Source: a virus. Taken from it: 49,992 bases of DNA. Under the pieces are notes generated by a model. That model searched no databases. It worked only from the letters and a program-made list of their open reading frames with translations, and was not told the origin of the DNA. Positions 42,093 to 49,992 of this stretch are shown in pieces. The stretch covers positions 1 through 49,992 of IMG/VR virus record IMGVR_UViG_3300043449_000769; one strand, given 5' to 3'. Both the position numbers and the translations under genes were made by a program. Each line of letters begins with the position of its first letter. The first letter of the stretch is position 1.

Positions 42093-43649
42093 CTATTTAG
42101 TGTCAACTTCTTGTCGATATAGGTCAATTATTTTTGTGTGACTGTGTATGTTTTGTTGGAGCATGGTGTACAGCTTGGCTTCTACTGGGCTTCCTTGGAT
42201 ATGCACTATCGTCATCGGATTGTGCTGCCCGGGACGGTTGATGCGTGCGTTGGCCTGCAAGTAAGTCTCTACGCTGGTAACCGGAGCGTACCAAATAATA
42301 GTGTTTGCTGCGGTAAGGGTAAGCCCGTGGGATGCCGCTTGTGGCTGGATAACAAGAACGTGTGGGTCTGGTTTCTCTTGGAAGTTCTGGATGATCCGCG
42401 CCCGGTTGTTGACTGACACACTGCCGGAAATCACATCGTTGGTTATCTTGTGCTTGGTCAGGAACTCGCTCAGCAGGTTTATGGTATGCGTGAACGGCAC
42501 GAACACAAGCACCTTGTGCGATGACTCCTCGATTACCTCAAGCACCACGTTCAGTCTGTTGCTTACGTCGAACTCTACGACCCCTCCAGTATCCGAGTAG
42601 ACCGCACCCCCTGATATTTGCAACAGCTTGTTGAGGTTGGTAGCTGCATTGACGGACGTGATCTGCTCACCCGCCGCTTCACATGTCATCTGATTTTTCA
42701 GCTTGGTGTAGTACGTCTGCTGCATGGGGGTCAGCGGGGCGTCACGTTCTACAAACGTCAATGGGGGCAGGTCAAGGCACTGGTCTTTCTCGAAACGGAT
42801 CGCAGGTTGCAACATGGTGTGAACGATCTTGTCTGCGGTGTTGCGCGGCTTCCACAAGAACTCGGTGACCTTGTACATCACCATGTCCCGGAACTGCCCG
42901 AAGTATTTCGGTGCCCCTGCGGGGTTAATCAGTTTGGCCAACCCATACGCATCCAAGGGGGATTGTGCTGCTGGAGTACCTGTAAGCATCCACAGCCACT
43001 CTACGTGACTCATGATTTCGTTCAACACTTTCCAACGATTTGTCTTGACGTTCTTATAGGCAGAGGCTTCGTCAACAACCACCATGTCAAAGCCGCCCTT
43101 GATGATCTCGTCCTTTATCACCGCCACGCCGTCAAAGTTGATGATGACGAACTCAGACTTGGCGTTGAGTATCTTGCGCCGCGCTGTGGCATCTCCGTGG
43201 GCTACAGAGCAGCTACGGTGCATAGCGAACTTGAACAGGTCTTGCTGCCACGCCGACTTCATAATCGACAGTGGGCATATCACCAGTACGCGTTTGATGG
43301 CGTTGATCTTCATCAAGTAGTCCACTGCCCATATCACGCTGGCAGTCTTACCTGTACCCTGCTCGTTGAAGCAGAATGCTTTTTTGCGGAGTGTCAAAAA
43401 CCCGGAAGTTTCTTTCTGGTGTGCGAACGGTGAGAACTTCCCTGTCCACGCGTAATCCCTGAGTATAGGGGATGGTGAAGTCTTGAGACCGATAGCCGCC
43501 AGTGCTTGCGCTTCTGCCAACCCCCAATGGATAGCCACCTCAAACAGTCCATCCGTCTCACGGAGCACCTTGGATTTCTTGATGCGTTCCGTAATGAGGT
43601 GCGGTTGCTTGGTCTTCACCAACACCACTGCGTCGTTCACGATTTCCAT
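42093..43649 (-). CDS. SNF2-type DNA helicase/translocase
   Basis: A 518-residue superfamily 2 ATPase. Motif I NEQGTGKT (about 95-102), Ia 'RVLVICPLSIMKSAWQQDL', motif II VVVDEAS (about 190-196, DEAS in place of DEAH), motif III LTGTPAAQSP (about 222-231). The C-terminal RecA-like domain has 'KVLVFVPFTHTINLLSEF', 'QAASHGLTLTAANTIIWY' and motif VI 'QANARINRPGQ'. Phage proteins of this class act in replication, recombination or displacement of bound proteins. Start overlaps the HNH gene stop (TAATG). Confidence 0.9.
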   Translation of the reverse strand: MEIVNDAVVLVKTKQPHLITERIKKSKVLRETDGLFEVAIHWGLAEAQALAAIGLKTSPSPILRDYAWTGKFSPFAHQKETSGFLTLRKKAFCFNEQGTGKTASVIWAVDYLMKINAIKRVLVICPLSIMKSAWQQDLFKFAMHRSCSVAHGDATARRKILNAKSEFVIINFDGVAVIKDEIIKGGFDMVVVDEASAYKNVKTNRWKVLNEIMSHVEWLWMLTGTPAAQSPLDAYGLAKLINPAGAPKYFGQFRDMVMYKVTEFLWKPRNTADKIVHTMLQPAIRFEKDQCLDLPPLTFVERDAPLTPMQQTYYTKLKNQMTCEAAGEQITSVNAATNLNKLLQISGGAVYSDTGGVVEFDVSNRLNVVLEVIEESSHKVLVFVPFTHTINLLSEFLTKHKITNDVISGSVSVNNRARIIQNFQEKPDPHVLVIQPQAASHGLTLTAANTIIWYAPVTSVETYLQANARINRPGQHNPMTIVHIQGSPVEAKLYTMLQQNIHSHTKIIDLYRQEVDTK

Positions 43650-43917: not shown

Positions 43918-44580
43918 CTATCTCCTGTTATGTTCGCATGTGGTGACTGGACAGAACTTGCACAACGGACCGGAATTGGCGTTCCACACCCCGGTGCTTT
44001 CCGCTACCGATAGTCTATCCAGTTCCGGCGTAAATGTAGCGAAGTACGATTTGCTCAGGTCGGAGGTATGCTCCTTCTTCACGAACTCGTTACTGACTAC
44101 GAAAGCAAGGGCAGACTTCAACTTCCGCAGTTGGGGGAAGCGAGTAAACACTGCTGCTGCCAGAATGTCCAATTGTTTGGTGTCTGCATACTTCGCGTTC
44201 TTGCTGGTCTTGTAGTCCACCAAGTAGCCGGTGTCCCCGTTGATAATCAGCAGGTCCGCAATACCCCTCCACCATACCTCCTCCCCGAAGAACTCGCAGG
44301 GTAGGTAGCCGGTGTCACTGAGTTCCACGCCCAGCTTCAACTCGCAGTGCTTCTCTCCGGGGATAGCCAGCAGTGCGTCGAGTGTCTTCTGCATGTAGCT
44401 GAACCGGGCTGGCAGCGGTGTGCCTGCAGACACGTAGTCCTCCGCAGCTTTGTGCGCTTCGTTACCGTAGATGGTGGCTTCGCTGCCCACATCCTTCACA
44501 TCCTTGAGCACCTTCAGGTGGTAGTACTTCTTTGCGCACTGCTCGAATGTTTTCAAGCTGCTGTAGGACCATGTAGTCAT
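43918..44580 (-). CDS. PD-(D/E)XK exonuclease (Cas4/RecB-like)
   Basis: 220 residues from ATG 44580, 1 base after the upstream stop. RecB/Cas4 pattern: 'SYSSLKTFEQCAKKYYHLKV' with a first Cys, 'GNEAHKAAEDYV' with His, then 'WWRGIADLLIINGDTGYLVD' giving Asp and the catalytic 'VDYKTSK' (D-x-K). Three Cys at the end ('LCKFCPVTTCEHNRR') complete a likely 4Fe-4S cluster. Such nucleases resect DNA ends and serve recombination. The neighbouring SNF2 helicase and HNH gene support a recombination or replication role. Confidence 0.88.
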   Translation of the reverse strand: MTTWSYSSLKTFEQCAKKYYHLKVLKDVKDVGSEATIYGNEAHKAAEDYVSAGTPLPARFSYMQKTLDALLAIPGEKHCELKLGVELSDTGYLPCEFFGEEVWWRGIADLLIINGDTGYLVDYKTSKNAKYADTKQLDILAAAVFTRFPQLRKLKSALAFVVSNEFVKKEHTSDLSKSYFATFTPELDRLSVAESTGVWNANSGPLCKFCPVTTCEHNRR

Positions 44581-44581
44581 C

Positions 44582-44938
44582 TTATGCCTCGTCAAATAGG
44601 TCTAGCTGAACAGTAAGGGGCAGTGGGGTAGTGCTGGGGCGGTCGTCGGTTCCTGTGTTGCGTTGCTCATACGCTATTAGGAACATCAGGCAACAGGCAG
44701 CGTGCCACAAGTGGCTGTACCCTGTCTCCTTGTCCTTTGACTCTCCACCCCACCACGCCCACATGTGACGCATCAAGGCACTGAACCCCCTGCTCCATGA
44801 CATACCTTTCTCCCAATTGCGTGGGGAGTACTTGCGAGCACCAAACGTAAGCACCACTGCGAGTGCGATCAGCATCTCAGGAGCGATAAGATTCATTTGC
44901 ATCTTGTCTTTGTCGTGCTTGTTACCTTCAGTTTTCAT
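44582..44938 (-). CDS. dATP/dGTP diphosphohydrolase-like protein
   Basis: 118 residues from ATG 44938, set by the strong repeated leader (GGAGGGGAAAACAAA). The core 'NKHDKDKMQMNLIAPEML', 'FGARKYSPRNWEKGMSWSRG', 'ALMRHMWAWWGGESKDKETG' and 'HLWHAACCLMFLIAYEQ' fits phage proteins described as dATP/dGTP diphosphohydrolase N-terminal domain (DUF5664-type). Charged E/D/H residues on helices would bind nucleotide and metal. It may shape the nucleotide pool for replication. No other base-modification genes are visible in the window, so a modified genome is not indicated. Confidence 0.78.
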   Translation of the reverse strand: MKTEGNKHDKDKMQMNLIAPEMLIALAVVLTFGARKYSPRNWEKGMSWSRGFSALMRHMWAWWGGESKDKETGYSHLWHAACCLMFLIAYEQRNTGTDDRPSTTPLPLTVQLDLFDEA

Positions 44939-45224
44939 TTTGTTTTCCCCTCCTTCCCGCTGTTTCAATTTCGTTTGTGTATTTGATCCGGCCATAAAAG
45001 CCAACGTCATTTTTGTTATGGAACAAATGATCAGGTAACGTGGCACCTCTGGGTCTTTTTTTTATTTCACACAACATAATTGATGTGCATCCCTCTTCCT
45101 TCAGCATATTGAACACATTTTCGGCAATATCCTTATCGAAATAAAACCCATCGACAGAGCCTGTTACGCAGTCCCATATCATCCAAAGTGGTTTTTTATT
45201 CATTACTTTTATGTTGTCTTTCAT
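44928..45224 (-). CDS. Small protein of the coupled gene chain, unknown
   Basis: 98 residues from ATG 45224, which lies in the 30-bp repeated start module. It reads 'MNKKPLWMIWDCVTGSVDGF', 'DKDIAENVFNMLKEEGCTSI' and 'KKRPRGATLPDHLFHNKNDV', a small alpha/beta protein with no known motif. The DNA is AT-rich (20 of 60 GC at 45061-45120), unlike the surrounding replication genes. Its stop lies 11 bases inside the next gene, whose start module it encodes in another frame. Function unknown. Confidence 0.72.
   Translation of the reverse strand: MKDNIKVMNKKPLWMIWDCVTGSVDGFYFDKDIAENVFNMLKEEGCTSIMLCEIKKRPRGATLPDHLFHNKNDVGFYGRIKYTNEIETAGRRGKQNEN
44936..44955 (-). repeat. Repeated start module, copy 1
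   Basis: Leftward AAGGAGGGGAAAACAAAATG, giving Shine-Dalgarno and start codon for the diphosphohydrolase-like gene. The same 20 bases occur at 45222-45241 and 45443-45462. Here the upstream gene reads it in a different frame (ends KQNEN) than at the other two sites. Confidence 0.9.
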
Positions 45225-45241
45225 TTTGTTTTCCCCTCCTT
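45212..45241 (-). repeat. Repeated start module, copy 2 (30-bp identity with copy 3)
   Basis: Identical over 30 bases to 45433-45462. It covers the Shine-Dalgarno, the start codon and the first codons (MKDN) of the 44928-45224 gene, and the last codons (KEGKTK) of the gene upstream. Confidence 0.92.
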
Positions 45242-45445
45242 CACCACAACTATGAGTTGTGATTCGTTGTATATATGCAAGGCTCCCCTGACTTCTGGAA
45301 CTGTACACTCTACGACTACACGGGTTTCTCCGCTGAGTGTTTTGAAAACCGCCACAACCACGCCGGGCCATTTATACCCAACAACTTTTTCTACTTCGGC
45401 ACCTACTTGCATAACGTATCGCTCCATTACCGTGTTGTCTTTCAT
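45221..45445 (-). CDS. Small beta-type protein of the chain, unknown
   Basis: 74 residues from ATG 45445. 'RYVMQVGAEVEKVVGYKWPG', then 'VVVAVFKTLSGETRVVVECT' and 'VRGALHIYNESQLIVV' form an all-beta SH3-like barrel with a Gly-Pro turn, a pattern I have seen in short phage proteins without known function. It ends VVKEGKTK, which is the coding reading of the repeated module. ATGA overlaps on both ends show tight coupling. Confidence 0.75.
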   Translation of the reverse strand: MKDNTVMERYVMQVGAEVEKVVGYKWPGVVVAVFKTLSGETRVVVECTVPEVRGALHIYNESQLIVVVKEGKTK

Positions 45446-45462
45446 TTTGTTTTCCCCTCCTT
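45433..45462 (-). repeat. Repeated start module, copy 3
   Basis: Thirty bases identical to 45212-45241, holding the Shine-Dalgarno and ATG of the 45221-45445 gene and the KEGKTK end of the 45442-45672 gene. A shorter, altered copy (TTTCATTTTGTTTT at 45783-45796) lies inside the 45665-45925 gene without a Shine-Dalgarno. Confidence 0.92.
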
Positions 45463-45672
45463 CCATCCCTGCTTGATTTTATGCTTGTCGTTGTTTATCA
45501 CAAATGCGCGTTGCTTCAGCGGGTTATATACGGTCTCCCCGATCTGTGCCTCGTAGACGACCCCGCCCCGTTTTCTAAATGCCGCGACTTGATCCGGTAT
45601 GTCCGCGAACCATGCCTCCTTCTCCCTCGCGTGACTGTCTGTCATCGTGTGATACACCTTACCTTTAATCAT
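45442..45672 (-). CDS. Small protein of the chain, unknown
   Basis: A 76-residue protein starting 'IKGKVYHTMTDSHAREKEAW' with 'FADIPDQVAAFRKRGGVVYE' and 'ETVYNPLKQRAFVINNDKHK', ending GWKEGKTK. A small alpha/beta fold is likely; no motif recognised. The start overlaps the upstream gene by 8 bases and the end by ATGA with the next. The shared KEGKTK terminus comes from the DNA module, not necessarily from protein function. Confidence 0.72.
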   Translation of the reverse strand: MIKGKVYHTMTDSHAREKEAWFADIPDQVAAFRKRGGVVYEAQIGETVYNPLKQRAFVINNDKHKIKQGWKEGKTK

Positions 45673-45925
45673 TTCGTTTTATCTCCCGCTTTCGTTGTGC
45701 AATGGCAAGTTGTGCTTGCAGCAGTTCGTTTTTTCCTTCCGTGTAACATTCAAAACAGATAAAGCCGTTGGAGTGTAAATGTTTCATTTTGTTTTGGGTT
45801 TGCTTTCCCTCGCGCTTACACTGTTTGCAAACTACAGTTATCCTTATCAAACCTGCGAGATAGTATGCTTTTGATTTCCGTGCTTTCGGAACTGCGGATA
45901 GCAGGGATTCCCCCATTTTTCTCAT
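45665..45925 (-). CDS. Small zinc-finger-like protein
   Basis: 86 residues from ATG 45925 with GGAGG 9 bases upstream. It holds CKQC and CFEC, 25 residues apart, typical of a zinc ribbon, with a basic N-terminus ('KARKSKAYYLAGLIR') and a helical, Lys/Arg-rich end. It may bind nucleic acid. Coupled by ATGA to the Cys-rich gene upstream. A degenerate copy of the repeated start module lies inside it. Confidence 0.75.
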   Translation of the reverse strand: MRKMGESLLSAVPKARKSKAYYLAGLIRITVVCKQCKREGKQTQNKMKHLHSNGFICFECYTEGKNELLQAQLAIAQRKREIKRND

Positions 45926-46116
45926 TTCGTTTCCTCCGGCAGCTGCGTAGGTTGATGACACGCCTCATCATGTGCGCACTCATTACCGTCGCTGCCAATG
46001 TTGCGGCACCAGTTGAGTTCAGCAGAACATGCTTCAAACTCTTGGTCACACACCGGTGACATGCAGATGTTCTTTAGCTCGCACACGCATGTTCGTTCTT
46101 TCGTGTACGTAGTCAT
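45922..46116 (-). CDS. Small Cys-rich protein, unknown
   Basis: 64 residues from ATG 46116; a GTG at 46125 is an alternative. Seven Cys are spread over 50 residues (CVC, C, C, C, C, C pattern) with acidic residues and His, which suits metal binding or disulfide bonds. No family recognised. It is joined by ATGA to the membrane protein upstream and to the zinc-finger gene downstream. The end PEETK encodes the next gene's GGAGG ribosome site. Confidence 0.7.
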   Translation of the reverse strand: MTTYTKERTCVCELKNICMSPVCDQEFEACSAELNWCRNIGSDGNECAHDEACHQPTQLPEETK

Positions 46117-46280
46117 ACGTACCACCCCGACAATAACGGAAACGTAAAAAACACTGCCGCCACGATAGCCGCCAGCGAAGTCAACCCAAACACTACGCCT
46201 GCAGGAGTAGTGTCAGACTCTTGCATCGCCAGCGCAGCAAGCACGCCGAAACCGAACCCGATCATGATTGACTCATTCAT
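46113..46280 (-). CDS. Small membrane protein, 55 residues
   Basis: Found by direct translation. It opens MNESIMIGFGFGVLAALAMQ, giving a first membrane segment, then a short polar loop (ESDTTPAG), then a second segment ('FGLTSLAAIVAAVFFTFPLL') and SGWYV. A strong AGGAGGGGG lies just upstream. Its stop and the next start share ATGA, and its own start overlaps the upstream stop in the same way. A two-segment phage membrane peptide outside the lysis cassette may act on host membrane or superinfection; the role is unknown. Confidence 0.75.
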   Translation of the reverse strand: MNESIMIGFGFGVLAALAMQESDTTPAGVVFGLTSLAAIVAAVFFTFPLLSGWYV

Positions 46281-46477
46281 CTTGCCCCCTCCTTAGTATG
46301 TCCACTTCGCTCTTTGCCCGGCACAGCTCGGCCCACGGGTTTATCAGTTCTCTCCAGTTCATGCTTGTCTCCTCTGTGTTTAACTCGGTTCCACCCAATA
46401 ATGTAGTTACGACTCTTGCCCTGCAGTAGTTCCCGATCCTCTTTGTCTGGGGTGTTGCTGGGTCGTTTGCATTGCAT
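46277..46477 (-). CDS. Small basic protein of the chain, overlapping frame
   Basis: 66 residues from ATG 46477 with GGAGAGAG 4 bases upstream. 'MQCKRPSNTPDKEDRELLQG' and 'KSRNYIIGWNRVKHRGDKHE' read like a real folded basic protein, and the end HTKEGAR encodes the next gene's Shine-Dalgarno and joins it by ATGA, as elsewhere in the chain. It overlaps the end of the 46407-46580 gene by 71 bases in another frame. The C-terminal 25 residues are less protein-like. Function unknown. Confidence 0.55.
   Translation of the reverse strand: MQCKRPSNTPDKEDRELLQGKSRNYIIGWNRVKHRGDKHELERTDKPVGRAVPGKERSGHTKEGAR
46294..46321 (-). repeat. 28-bp direct repeat (copy 1; copy 2 at 47182-47209)
   Basis: The same 28 bases occur just upstream of the start codons of the 46113-46280 and 46735-47163 genes. 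Both copies are followed leftward by a G-rich ribosome-binding site. In copy 1 they code part of PGKERSGHT in the 66-residue gene. Confidence 0.9.
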
Positions 46478-46580
46478 CCATCTCTCTCCAGAAATCGGTG
46501 TCCACGGGTCGTGGCTTGTTGTTCAGTGGCGGCAGTGCTTTGAGGCGCTGCATGAAGTTGTTCCACTCGGTGTTAGTCAT
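46407..46580 (-). CDS. Small protein of the chain, 57 residues
   Basis: Found by direct translation from ATG 46580, which overlaps the upstream stop (TGATG). It reads 'MTNTEWNNFMQRLKALPPLN' and 'NKPRPVDTDFWREMDAM', then a Gln/Gly/Thr-rich tail. The first 37 residues look like a real helical protein; the tail looks out-of-frame in character. Either it is a true gene whose end overlaps the following gene, or an indel has separated it from the 46277-46477 frame. Function unknown. Confidence 0.55.
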   Translation of the reverse strand: MTNTEWNNFMQRLKALPPLNNKPRPVDTDFWREMDAMQTTQQHPRQRGSGTTAGQES

Positions 46581-46738
46581 CACTCATCGCCCCCATCGTT
46601 CTTATTCTTCAACGCTATCTCAATGTCTACCGCTACTGCGTAGACGCCTTCGTATAATCGGGAGTCGGTGATCGTGATGTTGGACTTGATGATGTCCTCA
46701 ATTTCTTCTAGTGTCAGTCCGATAAACTGCTTATTCAT
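46580..46738 (-). CDS. Small acidic helical protein, 52 residues
   Basis: Found by direct translation: 'MNKQFIGLTLEEIEDIIKSN', 'ITITDSRLYEGVYAVAVDIE' and a charged end (KNKNDGGDE). GGAAGGAAA lies before the ATG, which overlaps the upstream stop by ATGA. Probably a helix-strand-helix fold; no family recognised. Its end DGGDE is read from a G-rich ribosome-site element resembling the one before the 47163 start. Confidence 0.68.
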   Translation of the reverse strand: MNKQFIGLTLEEIEDIIKSNITITDSRLYEGVYAVAVDIEIALKNKNDGGDE

Positions 46739-47163
46739 TTTCCTTCCCCCACAACCGGATCGCCGTTGTCATCTATCTGCACTATCGGTCGCCCTCTAAG
46801 CTTATGGAGGTGCATACCATCCTCAAGCTGCAACTTCCAGTCCGGGGCACTGTGCCAACCTAGCACCACGTAGCGCTTCAGGTCCGCCTCGAAGTATGTC
46901 TCGCAAGCTATCTTGAACTTCACCACTTCATCATGCGGCGCATCGGGGGGCAGCTTGAACGAACGTGCTATGACCATCGTTGAGACTCTCATTTCCCTAC
47001 TCCTCTCCCTCCACAGTCTGTTAACAAAGCTATATAGGTCAAGCGGGGTTATCACCAGAATCATCCGGCCCTCCGAGTCCTCGTACATGTTTTCGTACAT
47101 GGCGTTCTTCTCCAGCGCGTCCAGAAATTTGGCGCAGTCCATAAACGTATCGCGCTCACTCAT
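46735..47163 (-). CDS. Protein of the chain, 142 residues, unknown
   Basis: Starts 'SERDTFMDCAKFLDALEKNA', continues with 'SEGRMILVITPLDLYSFVNR' and 'VSTMVIARSFKLPPDAPHDE', and ends with 'YVVLGWHSAPDWKLQLEDGM'. Mixed alpha/beta, soluble. No catalytic motif seen. A G-rich site (AAGGGGG) lies about 12 bases before the ATG, and the 28-bp repeat lies just upstream. The end GEGK joins the next gene by ATGA. Function unknown. Confidence 0.75.
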   Translation of the reverse strand: MSERDTFMDCAKFLDALEKNAMYENMYEDSEGRMILVITPLDLYSFVNRLWRERSREMRVSTMVIARSFKLPPDAPHDEVVKFKIACETYFEADLKRYVVLGWHSAPDWKLQLEDGMHLHKLRGRPIVQIDDNGDPVVGEGK

Positions 47164-47181
47164 CGCTCATCGCCCCCTTCG

Positions 47182-47209
47182 TAGTATGTCCACTTCGCTC
47201 TTTGCCCGG
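47182..47209 (-). repeat. 28-bp direct repeat (copy 2 of 46294-46321)
   Basis: Exact second copy, lying in the short gap between the 47218-47673 and 46735-47163 genes. No gene needs to be translated through it here, so the identity is more likely a copied leader than conserved protein. Confidence 0.9.
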
Positions 47210-47217
47210 TTTGCGCT

Positions 47218-47673
47218 TCATTTCTTGATCGCCTCCGACAGCTTGGCAAGCTGGCCCGACTTTTCCATTTCGGCAAGGGTGGACATCGCCACTGCTGCGC
47301 GTTCCAACAAATCGACCATGCGCTCAAGGCGGTCAAAGTTTGCGGCCTTCTCGATTTTAGCCAGTCCAGCAGCCATGGTGTCTGCGGCGGTGCGAACCGA
47401 CGAACTTGCTTTCTTCGCGCTACTAGAGAAATCAATATGCGTCTTAGTGAATGCGTTCAGCGCGGACGCGAAGCGTTTGTCAGCTTCTTCGGTCAGGTCG
47501 ATCGCGGTTTTTATGTCGGCGTTCATACGCTTGGTTACCCTCTTGAAATAGTCTTCGATTAAAATGGCTTTTACAACGTGGGCGTCAACCGTTGCCTGAG
47601 AATATTGTGGCCCTTCCTTGTCGTATCCTACAGGTTCGATACCGAGGCGTTTGAGTTCAAGTTCTATGTGCAT
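47218..47673 (-). CDS. Coiled-coil protein, unknown
   Basis: A 151-residue, almost fully helical protein with AAAGGAG before the ATG. It runs 'ELELKRLGIEPVGYDKEG', then 'VKAILIEDYFKRVTKRMNAD', 'LTEEADKRFASALNAFTKTH' and 'AKIEKAANFDRLERMVDLLE', ending LSEAIKK. Heptad-like Ala/Leu spacing suggests a long coiled coil. No enzymatic motif. Function not recognised. Confidence 0.72.
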   Translation of the reverse strand: MHIELELKRLGIEPVGYDKEGPQYSQATVDAHVVKAILIEDYFKRVTKRMNADIKTAIDLTEEADKRFASALNAFTKTHIDFSSSAKKASSSVRTAADTMAAGLAKIEKAANFDRLERMVDLLERAAVAMSTLAEMEKSGQLAKLSEAIKK

Positions 47674-47697
47674 TCCCTACTCCTTTCAGCGCCGTAT

Positions 47698-47868
47698 TCA
47701 TCTTGCACCCCGCGGCCTGTACCGAACTTTGTCCAAGTCCAACTCGCGGATGTACCGTTTGAAACGGCCCATTACCTCTTCTTTAGTCTGGCCGAACCAC
47801 GTCAACTTCACTACGCCATCGTCACTGGTAAGCATCCACCAGCGGTCTTTAATTTTCTTGAGTACCAT
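47698..47868 (-). CDS. Small basic protein, 56 residues
   Basis: Found by direct translation from ATG 47868, which overlaps the upstream stop (TAATG), with GGAGG 5 bases before. It reads 'MVLKKIKDRWWMLTSDDGVV', 'KLTWFGQTKEEVMGRFKRYI' and a basic end. Beta strands followed by a helix, Trp-rich. No family recognised. A 14-codon frame (MNTALK...) starts within its stop and may be only the leader to the 47673 start. Confidence 0.72.
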   Translation of the reverse strand: MVLKKIKDRWWMLTSDDGVVKLTWFGQTKEEVMGRFKRYIRELDLDKVRYRPRGAR

Positions 47869-48077
47869 TAGTGCACCTCCACCCCGTCCATGTGGTCGTC
47901 GGACTCGTCCCAGAAAGCAAGTATCGTGGCGGCGAAAACATCTTTGGGCATACCGATATGCTTTGCGAAGTCGATTAACATTACGCTGAGAACCGAACCG
48001 ATTTCGTCAACTTTGTGCCCCTTACATGCGCGCTTAATTGCTGCCTCAAGTGCAGCCATCTTTTTAGTGTCACCCAT
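47868..48077 (-). CDS. Small protein, 69 residues, unknown
   Basis: It reads 'GDTKKMAALEAAIKRACKGH', 'KVDEIGSVLSVMLIDFAKHI' and 'PKDVFAATILAFWDESDDHM', two or three helices with a charged end. GAGGA lies before the ATG. First gene of the small-gene chain after the gene-free gap beside the polymerase. Function not recognised. Confidence 0.72.
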   Translation of the reverse strand: MGDTKKMAALEAAIKRACKGHKVDEIGSVLSVMLIDFAKHIGMPKDVFAATILAFWDESDDHMDGVEVH

Positions 48078-48296
48078 TACATAATCCTCAGTATTTCAAT
48101 TGCTTGTTTGCCTCTGTGTTGGAAGAGTGCCTCCTGCGGATGCAGGAGGGCTAACCGTAGCGTGGTTTCTCCGACGTATACCCGGCAGGAGGACAACAAA
48201 GTGTCAACCGCTATACGTTGAGGGTGTTTTTTGCATCAGCCCACCGCCCACTGGGACCGTGATAGGAGTAAAACGCTAACCCCCTACCATTACGAA
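48078..48296. other. Gene-free gap with an 8-bp stem-loop
   Basis: A 219-base stretch between the polymerase stop and the small-gene chain. It holds a perfect hairpin, CCTCCTGC-ggat-GCAGGAGG (48130-48149), whose arm spells an AGGAGG ribosome-site sequence on both strands, and a TTGACA-like element reading leftward without a well-spaced -10. The hairpin lacks a T-tract. It may regulate the chain, but nothing here proves it. Confidence 0.45.
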
Positions 48297-49992
48297 TTAA
48301 CAATCGCCGTAGGACTCCCCGGACCCGCCCTCACAGTTCAACGGTAAGTCTGGTGCCCACACGGGGCGCGTCCGCATACACTGTTCAACGAACTCAAGCC
48401 CTTCTGTTTCTTGTGCCTCGGGTACAACCACACCAATGGCGTCATGCACCGTCAAGGCAACCCGATACTTGCGGCTGACACGTATCAACTGCTCACCGAT
48501 AACGATGCGAGCAATCGCCTGACAGCAGTTCTCCACGACCTTACCTCCGTATATCCGGTTAGGTATAACGCTCTTGCCTTTCTTGGTGTCGTACACCATT
48601 TCTTTTTTGCCTGTCGTGGCATCGTTATGCCAGCGCAAGTTCGGATACCGCAGGTATAACCCGTTTGGCAGGCGTATGCCTTTGCGTCCTTCCACAACTA
48701 CTACTCCGTCTCGCCCCAAGGGTGCGGTCTGGTCATTCATCATGGCGACCAAGGCTTCACCAGCCTGCTTCCACAACTCAGGGATGCGGTCGTAGGTTTG
48801 ACGGTACACAGCGATGATGCGCTGGCATTCCTCCAGTGGGGTTACCACCTTGAAGTTTTGCAGCTGCACCTGAAACTTATTCGGCCCCATGTTGTACCCG
48901 CTACCCAAAATTGTTGCCTTACCAACGAAGCGTTCGCTTTTGTCTATCTCTTCCACGGGCTTACCGTATATGGCCGAAGCCATGATCTTGTACACGTCGT
49001 CTCCACGTTCAAACGCAGTGACCAAGTCGTCCTGCCCCGCCCACCATGCCAACGTGCGGGCCTCAATCTGCGAAGAGTCGCAGTCGATGAACTTGTATCC
49101 TGTCGGTGCACGTAGCGCATACTTGAGTACGGAGTTGCGCGGCAAGTTCTGCATGTTGACCTTATCATCGCCTCCCCAACGCCCGGTATGCGCCGCGTAG
49201 TAACGCAGAGGTATGGGCATCAACCCACGGGTAGCGATACTGAGTAGCCGCTCGGTGCGTGACTCCTCGATAGTGGACTTCACCCCCAGCCTCGCCGCTG
49301 CCAGCGCCTGTACGTGCAGGTTGTCGTGCTCCAGCAACTCCAAGAACGCTTCGTCCGTTTTGGCAAAGGCGTAAACCTGCTTGCCCGTGGTTGGGCTTAT
49401 CTTGGTAGGTGGTTGCACCCCCAAGCTCCGCAGTAGTTCTGCCAGCTGCTCGTTGCTCATCAGTTGATCCTTGTCGATCATCGCCTTGGCAAGTGCAACG
49501 CGTTTGGCTTCCCGCACGTTATTGAGGTTGAGTTCCAACACCCCAGCATCCAGCTCGATGACTGGTTCGCTGAACATGCGGATGGTCAGGTCGATCAAGT
49601 TAAGCTCTGACACCGGAAAGCCCTGTGCCAACCGCCCGAACAGTTTGTAGGTCAACGCTACGTCGTTCTTGCAGTACTCGCCGTACCTCGCCAACTCCTC
49701 CGCTGTAAAGTCCAGACGCCGTTTGCCCAGCGCGTCACCTACTTCCGTACCCTTTGCCCCAAGCCCGTAGTACTCCGCCAGCGCAGCGAGACTGCCACCT
49801 ACCTCGATGGTGTGTAGTGCCCTTGCCATTGACAGAGTATCCGCAACCTTCTTGGGCTTGATACCAAAGTGCCAGTTGAGGATGGCCATGTCGAACATGG
49901 CGTTGTGCGCCAATGCTGCGGCGTTCTGCCAGTCATACTGCGCAAGGAACTTCTTTATCTGCGCGTGCGTTCCGCTGAACCACACTGATGAC
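48297..49992 (-). CDS. polA: DNA polymerase, family A (5' end beyond window)
   Basis: At least 564 residues, open through the right edge, so the start and the first exonuclease motif are missing. Visible: 3'-5' exonuclease motif II ('ALAHNAMFDMAIL') and motif III (YCKND), then polymerase motif A 'FIDCDSSQIEARTLAWWAG' (DSSQIEAR where most have DYSQIELR), motif B 'RFVGKATILGSGYNMG' and motif C 'ALTVHDAIGVVV' with HDA. The C-terminus ends in a Gly/Ser/Cys tail. A replicative, proofreading phage polymerase without visible 5' nuclease. Works with the primase-helicase of the same operon. Confidence 0.95.
   Translation of the reverse strand, partial: SSVWFSGTHAQIKKFLAQYDWQNAAALAHNAMFDMAILNWHFGIKPKKVADTLSMARALHTIEVGGSLAALAEYYGLGAKGTEVGDALGKRRLDFTAEELARYGEYCKNDVALTYKLFGRLAQGFPVSELNLIDLTIRMFSEPVIELDAGVLELNLNNVREAKRVALAKAMIDKDQLMSNEQLAELLRSLGVQPPTKISPTTGKQVYAFAKTDEAFLELLEHDNLHVQALAAARLGVKSTIEESRTERLLSIATRGLMPIPLRYYAAHTGRWGGDDKVNMQNLPRNSVLKYALRAPTGYKFIDCDSSQIEARTLAWWAGQDDLVTAFERGDDVYKIMASAIYGKPVEEIDKSERFVGKATILGSGYNMGPNKFQVQLQNFKVVTPLEECQRIIAVYRQTYDRIPELWKQAGEALVAMMNDQTAPLGRDGVVVVEGRKGIRLPNGLYLRYPNLRWHNDATTGKKEMVYDTKKGKSVIPNRIYGGKVVENCCQAIARIVIGEQLIRVSRKYRVALTVHDAIGVVVPEAQETEGLEFVEQCMRTRPVWAPDLPLNCEGGSGESYGDC

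Follow-up and report, generated by a model that had tools for sequence, protein, structure and literature searches.

Organization of the small-gene block

The stretch of DNA analysed here (the window) is virus record IMGVR_UViG_3300043449_000769, a metagenomic contig of 49,992 bases. Its right part contains the early region, which runs leftward from the gene for DNA polymerase A (48297–49985) through a series of small genes to g13 and then to genes for a PD-(D/E)XK exonuclease, a small HNH-like protein, an SNF2-type helicase and a DUF927 primase/helicase. The variable small genes fill the interval between the polymerase and exonuclease genes. They constitute a hypervariable module of a DNA-polymerase-A tailed phage, a single leftward series of genes with ~50–150 codons each; within the block, a function can be recognised for g13 alone (dATP/dGTP diphosphohydrolase domain). 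The data presented below make it likely that whole genes are exchanged in this block of overlapping small genes and that the DNA at the joints between them is copied in a minority of these events. Genes were called with our own simple gene caller, which ignores open reading frames (ORFs) of fewer than 28 codons; the sequences compared, denoted L with a number, are all metagenomic contigs. The region comprises the following features (aa, amino acids):

47868–48077, minus strand: g1, 69 aa, the first small gene past the DNA polymerase
47698–47868, minus strand: g2, 56 aa, TAATG overlap with g1
47218–47673, minus strand: g3, 151 aa, common to L170–L172 (92–94% aa identity)
46735–47163, minus strand: A+C, a 142-aa ORF, in-frame fusion of gene A (47163 to ~47001) and gene C (46992–46735)
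46580–46738, minus strand: g5, 52 aa, ATGA overlap with C
46577–46599, minus strand: g5/g6a joint, ATGGGGGCGATGAGTGATGA
46407–46580, minus strand: g6a, 57 aa, relative in L043 with 83% aa identity
46277–46477, minus strand: g6 frame b, 66 aa, C-terminus KEGAR
46273–46362, minus strand: gene a, overlapping g6 frame b out of frame, shortened relative to L072, L061 and L086
46113–46280, minus strand: g7, 55 aa, small hydrophobic protein
45922–46116, minus strand: g8, 64 aa, Cys-rich
45665–45925, minus strand: g9, 86 aa, CxxC...CxxC
45442–45672, minus strand: g10, 76 aa, relatives in L090 and L170–L173
45221–45445, minus strand: g11, 74 aa, whose flanks MKDN... and ...KEGKTK fall in the joint repeat
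44928–45224, minus strand: g12, 98 aa, C-terminus AGRRGKQNEN
44582–44938, minus strand: g13, 118 aa, dATP/dGTP diphosphohydrolase N-terminal domain (PF18909)
43918–44580, minus strand: g14, PD-(D/E)XK exonuclease, conserved, bounding the variable block on its far side

Stop/start overlaps at the joints

A preliminary description of this DNA had reported a chain of ATGA overlaps. Six of these were found, at 46738 (C/g5), 46280 (g6 frame b/g7), 46116 (g7/g8), 45925 (g8/g9), 45445 (g10/g11) and 45224 (g11/g12); the further position named, 46477, is merely the start of one g6 frame. The joints g9/g10 (45672) and g12/g13 (44938) are of other types, with an 8-nt overlap, ATGATTAA, and an 11-nt overlap, respectively. 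As had been described, the Shine-Dalgarno sequence of the next gene lies within the coding end of the upstream gene at the joints, in addition to the overlap of stop and start, and the C-termini read KEGKTK (g10), KEGKTK (g11), KEGAR (g6), PEETK (g8) and GEGK (A+C). The six ATGA joints thus have the arrangement of coupled overlapping genes. The block is indeed AT-rich, albeit mildly, with a GC content of ~0.48 compared with 0.49–0.59 elsewhere. Overlaps of 4 nt accounted for 5 of the 13 called joints in the block and for 2 of the 48 joints elsewhere in the window (Fisher p = 0.0035); the sixth ATGA joint is absent from this count because the gene caller took the other g6 frame. From what is established for genes that overlap, the joints in this run of small genes would be expected to couple translation in vivo. 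In the g6 region, several relatives keep both overlapping frames (46277–46477; 46273–46362; L072:13464–13740) open, with similar sequences; either or both may code.

The preliminary description overlooked two features, the exact DNA repeats at the joints and the correspondence of the 142-aa ORF at 47163–46735 to two separate genes, A and C, of relatives.

An exact repeat at three consecutive joints

The sequence GAAGGAGGGGAAAACAAAATGAAA is present three times in the window, and two of the copies are exact over 31 nt:

45433–45463, minus strand: joint repeat copy 1 (g10/g11), 31 nt, GAAGGAGGGGAAAACAAAATGAAAGACAACA
45212–45242, minus strand: joint repeat copy 2 (g11/g12), 31 nt, identical to copy 1
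44933–44957, minus strand: joint repeat copy 3 (g12/g13), 24–25 nt exact match to copy 1

The 18-nt core of the repeat, GGAGGGGAAAACAAAATG, occurred three times, compared with 0.02 times in shuffled sequences. The 31-nt identity takes in the Shine-Dalgarno sequence with its spacer as well as the start codon and as many as three codons after it, which is more than ribosome binding needs. At copies 1 and 2 the upstream gene reads ...KEGKTK; at copy 3 the frame differs and the ending is ...RRGKQNEN. The repeat is therefore not kept by protein selection; what is conserved is the DNA. The preliminary description had ascribed the similar C-termini to translational rather than protein reasons. The similarity of the two KEGKTK endings goes back to copying of DNA, and not solely to the need for each ending to serve as a ribosome site, given the copy in another frame and the takeover of a C-terminus in L061 (see below).

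The nearest relative, L090, is 93.8% identical to the window from 44952 downward, and its homology therefore begins inside joint repeat copy 3. Its gene order is g10, a GIY-YIG-like gene and g13, the GIY-YIG-like gene replacing g11 and g12. In L090, g10 ends in GGATGGAAGGAGGGAAAATGA and g13 starts with GAGGAGAAAACAAAATGAAAACTGAAGG; the 31-nt joint of the window is composed of the left part of the former and the right part of the latter, and by this comparison looks like a hybrid of the g10 end and the g13 start. In the simplest history, g10 and g13 would once have been adjacent via this hybrid joint, and g11 and g12 would have been added later together with copies of it. A free-standing homing endonuclease at the place of g11–g12, such as the GIY-YIG-like gene (L090:631–1149) might encode, could promote the exchange of genes there.

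An exact scan of the viral_contigs collection with the 18-mer yielded matches solely in L003 and L004, near-copies of one other phage. We attribute these matches to chance or to ribosome-site convergence; the only similarity detected between that phage and the window was a 29%-identical terminase. Folding of the three joint copies revealed no consistent structure.

A 28-nt repeat flanks an inserted gene segment

A second exact repeat, of 28 nt, marks the two ends of a multigene segment:

47182–47209, minus strand: left copy, CCGGGCAAAGAGCGAAGTGGACATACTA, derived from g6, within a 21-aa remnant ORF, MKRKPGKERSGHTTKGAMSDE
46294–46321, minus strand: right copy, within the 3' part of g6
46295–47208, minus strand: inserted segment (A, C, g5, g6a, g6), not in L170–L172

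The 26-nt core that was used for searching occurred twice (0.00 times in shuffled sequences) and had no exact match in viral_contigs. Relative to L170–L172, the repeat flanks both ends of an insertion of ~914 bases and four to five genes. In these three contigs the end of g3 abuts the g7 joint (GCGCAAACTAAGGAGGGAGCAGGCGCTATGAATGAATCA in L170). Because g3 directly precedes the g7 joint there, L170–L172 represent the empty site of the 47208–46295 segment. The 21-aa ORF (47158–47220) resembles what an internal deletion would leave of g6, with the start and part of the end retained.

The g5/g6a joint within the segment is resembled by the joint before A (47160–47182) and by joints before different genes in L061, L072 and L086. 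At the g9/g10 joint, 19 nt are tandemly duplicated in L170–L172 (AAGCGGGAGATAAAACGAA twice) and single in the window.

Gene content and order in relatives

Genes A, C and g6 occur in polymerase-A relatives or neighbouring contigs (L043, L061, L072/L085, L086, L088 and L089) in other orders, and fragment L087 contains C alone. In L072/L085 the order is A-g6-C, with g6 between the two genes that are fused in frame in the window; L061 has g6-C without A; and L086 has both A and C, far apart. The core of g11 (residues ~12–64) corresponds to a small gene with relatives in several other phage contigs. No relative of g5 was found among the compared loci, and a search for relatives of g12 likewise found none.

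L061 and L072 contain the same small gene (MDWPTAVV...) after the same upstream gene. It ends EHLIGRGN in L072 and EHLIGEEPARGIN in L061, with EEPARGIN at the C-terminus instead of RGN; the preceding gene likewise ends in EEPARG(M/I)N. In L088 the MDWPTAVV... gene is absent and the joint is present once. The L061 gene has thus taken over the C-terminus of its neighbour and provides a clear independent case of joint copying.

Four contigs, L170–L173, were located through g10. All four contain g2 as well as g8 and g10 relatives; L170–L172 add g3 and g9, and L171–L172 also g7. The match of g2 is 83–95% at the aa level in L170–L173 and 65–72% in polymerase-A relatives. Long segments shared by the window and L170–L172 (g2, g3 and the g7–g10 region) are 85–90% identical in DNA sequence. 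L170–L173 encode a Sak annealing protein, YqaJ, a phage lysozyme and Terminase_3 on one or another contig, the Terminase_3 protein being located in L173. The backbone genes of this Sak/YqaJ lineage differ from those of the window, whose polymerase and terminase were not seen on the four contigs. As the backbones differ and the block genes match, the block is shared across backbones. L170 and L172 have two lysis-region genes in common with the window (57–69% protein identity); together with the small genes that are 85–90% identical in DNA, this suggests a common host.

Breakpoints cluster at gene starts

Across 55 contigs, the interval between the polymerase and exonuclease genes ranges from 346 to 4511 nt and contains differing small genes. 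We identified 336 distinct abrupt homology breakpoints. Of the ends scored, 63% lay within 15 nt of a start codon, compared with 11% of random positions (median distances of 10 and 74 nt, respectively). Related phages therefore differ by whole genes, as the preliminary description had anticipated, with breakpoints clustering at gene boundaries as in boundary mosaicism; gene order changes as well.

We then determined how often joints share sequence. Within blocks, 20 exact repeats of at least 16 nt were found in 240 kb, and 8 of the 20 had both copies at starts, although start zones make up just 6% of block sequence. An exact run of at least 12 nt was shared by 8 of 448 unique pairs of adjacent joints and by 5 of 1809 non-adjacent pairs (p = 0.001). 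Without the joints of the window, the values were 6 of 434 and 3 of 1729 (p = 0.003, approximate range 0.002–0.003). These pairs were taken within the same contig, near-identical pairs were counted once and homologous pairs were excluded. We rejected a family-wide joint motif, as the similarity at 10 nt among non-adjacent joints of one contig barely exceeded that between contigs (0.42% versus 0.35%). Collectively, these data indicate that joint copying is real, local and uncommon.

Other features of the region

Pfam matches of the small genes at E values of 0.02–0.05 fell below the family cut-offs and were dropped. Megablast of the last 10 kb of the window against named phages returned no match, and the polymerase of the window shares at most ~38% protein identity with named phages. 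An Rfam search of 44000–49992 yielded no match, including the 219-nt gap between the polymerase gene and g1 (48078–48296), in which short stretches are identical in several relatives (CGGAGAAACCACGCTACGGTTAGCCC; GTCCCAGTGGGCGGTGGGC). The gap also contains a hairpin, CCTCCTGCATCCGCAGGAGG, whose arms contain an anti-Shine-Dalgarno and a Shine-Dalgarno sequence; the overall fold z-score was -0.9.

The helicase ORF of L090 (2435–4987) encodes 850 aa, compared with 518 aa for its uninterrupted counterpart in the window (42093–43649). The difference is an in-frame insert of ~332 aa at the Walker A motif (NEQG|CVDAD...FASGN|TGKT) with an intein-like look, for which Pfam reported no intein family.

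Discussion

The findings are best accommodated by a mechanism in which co-infecting phages, including those of other backbones, recombine and thereby insert, lose or reorder genes as whole units, singly or in short runs. The surviving recombinants would be those joined at gene boundaries, as a cut there leaves both neighbours intact; since recombination is least harmful at coupled joints, selection alone would place most breakpoints there. Occasionally, in a minority of events, the joint DNA, being short and shareable, may itself serve as the homology for a crossover. Such joint-to-joint crossovers would give neighbouring starts identical copies of one joint and unrelated genes a common C-terminus. 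A more far-reaching version, that insertion of a small gene duplicates the receiving stop/Shine-Dalgarno/start joint and so creates a second, equal docking site, whereby joints would spread locally and the block would grow or shrink independently of what its genes are, strikes us as rather unlikely.

Several observations weigh against copied joints as the usual route of exchange. Only 5 of 70 distinct clean gene indels share at least 17 nt between two joints (L061/L088, 37 nt; L064/L049, 24 nt; L086/L061, 21 nt; L030/L027, 17 nt; and L072/L061, 17 nt), most sharing at most 8 nt, and joint repeats of at least 16 nt occur in a handful of 97 contigs. For both reasons copied joints must be regarded as sporadic: sequence shared at both ends of exchanged genes is seen for the 31- and 28-nt repeats and these five indels, and not for most events. 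The earlier proposal of exchange as units at identical joints thus holds for the whole genes, and for identical joints in a minority of cases. Likewise, breakpoints mostly lie at joints as it had predicted, but some fall inside genes, namely gene a, which is cut before g7, the g7–g8 fusion in L170 and the A+C fusion. Moreover, the breakpoints scored between contig pairs are not all independent events, the genes behind the counts are predictions of a simple caller, and the direction of change, gain or loss, is mostly not polarised.

The small amount of sequence shared at most indels, together with the near-background similarity of non-adjacent joints, is what one would expect if random illegitimate recombination were followed by survival of between-gene products, joints being alike merely as ribosome sites of the same genome. 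This account probably covers most exchanges. It does not cover the copied joints: the exact 31- and 28-nt repeats extend into codons 2–4 and into upstream coding sequence, adjacent joints are similar in excess, and one L061 gene acquired the last eight codons of its neighbour. As an explanation of the whole pattern we therefore consider selection alone possible, though doubtful. The strong Shine-Dalgarno sequence at fixed spacing before three consecutive genes, and the little mRNA structure predicted over the start in all three copies, could instead suggest a functional start-associated element kept for regulation of translation, like the start-associated sequences (SAS) of Cluster K mycobacteriophages. 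We hold this to be improbable, as there are just three copies, adjacent to each other and private to the genome, with the 18-mer elsewhere at about chance level; the same genes have different joints in L090; and the identity reaches into codons.

The repeats might also have led a metagenome assembler to fuse different phages, and the end of the L170 contig inside joint-like sequence is indeed what is expected at branches of an assembly graph. Such an artefact is very unlikely, given that the g10–g13 link in this backbone is independently seen in L090, that g2, A, C and g6 are also present in polymerase-A relatives, and that reading frames continue across the joints; most rearrangements, furthermore, contain no repeat of a length that could misdirect assembly. 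If genes had been duplicated in tandem and had then diverged, the joint being conserved longest, the most similar joints would be adjacent ones, as they are. Such duplication nevertheless seems the least credible explanation, and a most improbable one: g10, g11, g12 and g13 have no detected homology beyond the joint, homologous pairs had already been excluded from the adjacent-joint counts, g11 has relatives of its own elsewhere, and a 31-nt identical joint beside gene bodies diverged beyond recognition is implausible.

Whole-gene exchange with occasional copying of joints has precedents. The boundary-sequence (linker) model of lambdoid mosaicism (Susskind and Botstein 1978 for P22 and Clark et al. 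2001 for HK620, as cited in PMC3029335) holds, as outlined there, that short conserved sequences between genes provide the homology for whole-gene exchange, as we propose here for some events. In contrast to the boundaries so outlined, those of the window are stop/Shine-Dalgarno/start overlaps that are private to the genome and copied mainly between adjacent joints. The pattern at genes 67–68 of the Cluster I mycobacteriophages Brujita and Island3 was attributed to recombination between sequences of ~50 bp (PMC3029335); g10/g11 of the window and the two L061 genes resemble genes 67/68 of Island3, whereas in the block and its relatives several events are seen, not one, together with a copy in another frame. 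The SAS of Cluster K are 13 bp long, conserved cluster-wide and dispersed in 11–19 copies per genome, and were suggested by their discoverers as possible recombination targets (PMC3203893); a similar motif is present in Cluster EF (PMC7302621). Like SAS, the repeat lies at the ribosome-site position before unrelated genes and is longer than a ribosome site needs. Unlike SAS, its three copies are adjacent rather than spread over the genome, are private and take in codons, and conservation across related phages is lacking (one other phage with the exact core; different joints in L090). On grounds of both copy number and conservation we rejected SAS as the identity of the joint repeat.

Enzymes capable of such crossovers would be phage proteins of the Red/Rad52-like type, which perform relaxed homologous recombination even where homology is short or diverged; ~30% of the mosaics between temperate or defective phages have homology traces at their flanks (PMC2327257, PMC3945230). 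The 28–31-nt repeats come close to the minimum homology of Red-beta, 30 bp (PMC3945230), and RecET events at 5–13 bp are cited, at low frequency, in PMC2327257. The family searches identified no Red/Rad52-like recombinase in the window, only the PD-(D/E)XK exonuclease; the partner lineage L170/L172 carries the Sak annealing protein and YqaJ.

Taken together, the block is a clear example of the phage gene shuffling and boundary-sequence mosaicism that had already been proposed, a model that it fits in part. Similar C-termini of adjacent small phage proteins can reflect copied joint DNA rather than homology, which should be borne in mind in annotation. Much of the small-gene content is common to phages of different backbone, at 85–90% identity. 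Whether small phage genes are gained and lost through boundary homology or through random joining and selection is an old question; the block bears signs of both, and does so countably, in the form of copied joints, an empty site, a copy in another frame, the takeover of a C-terminus and the excess similarity of neighbouring joints.

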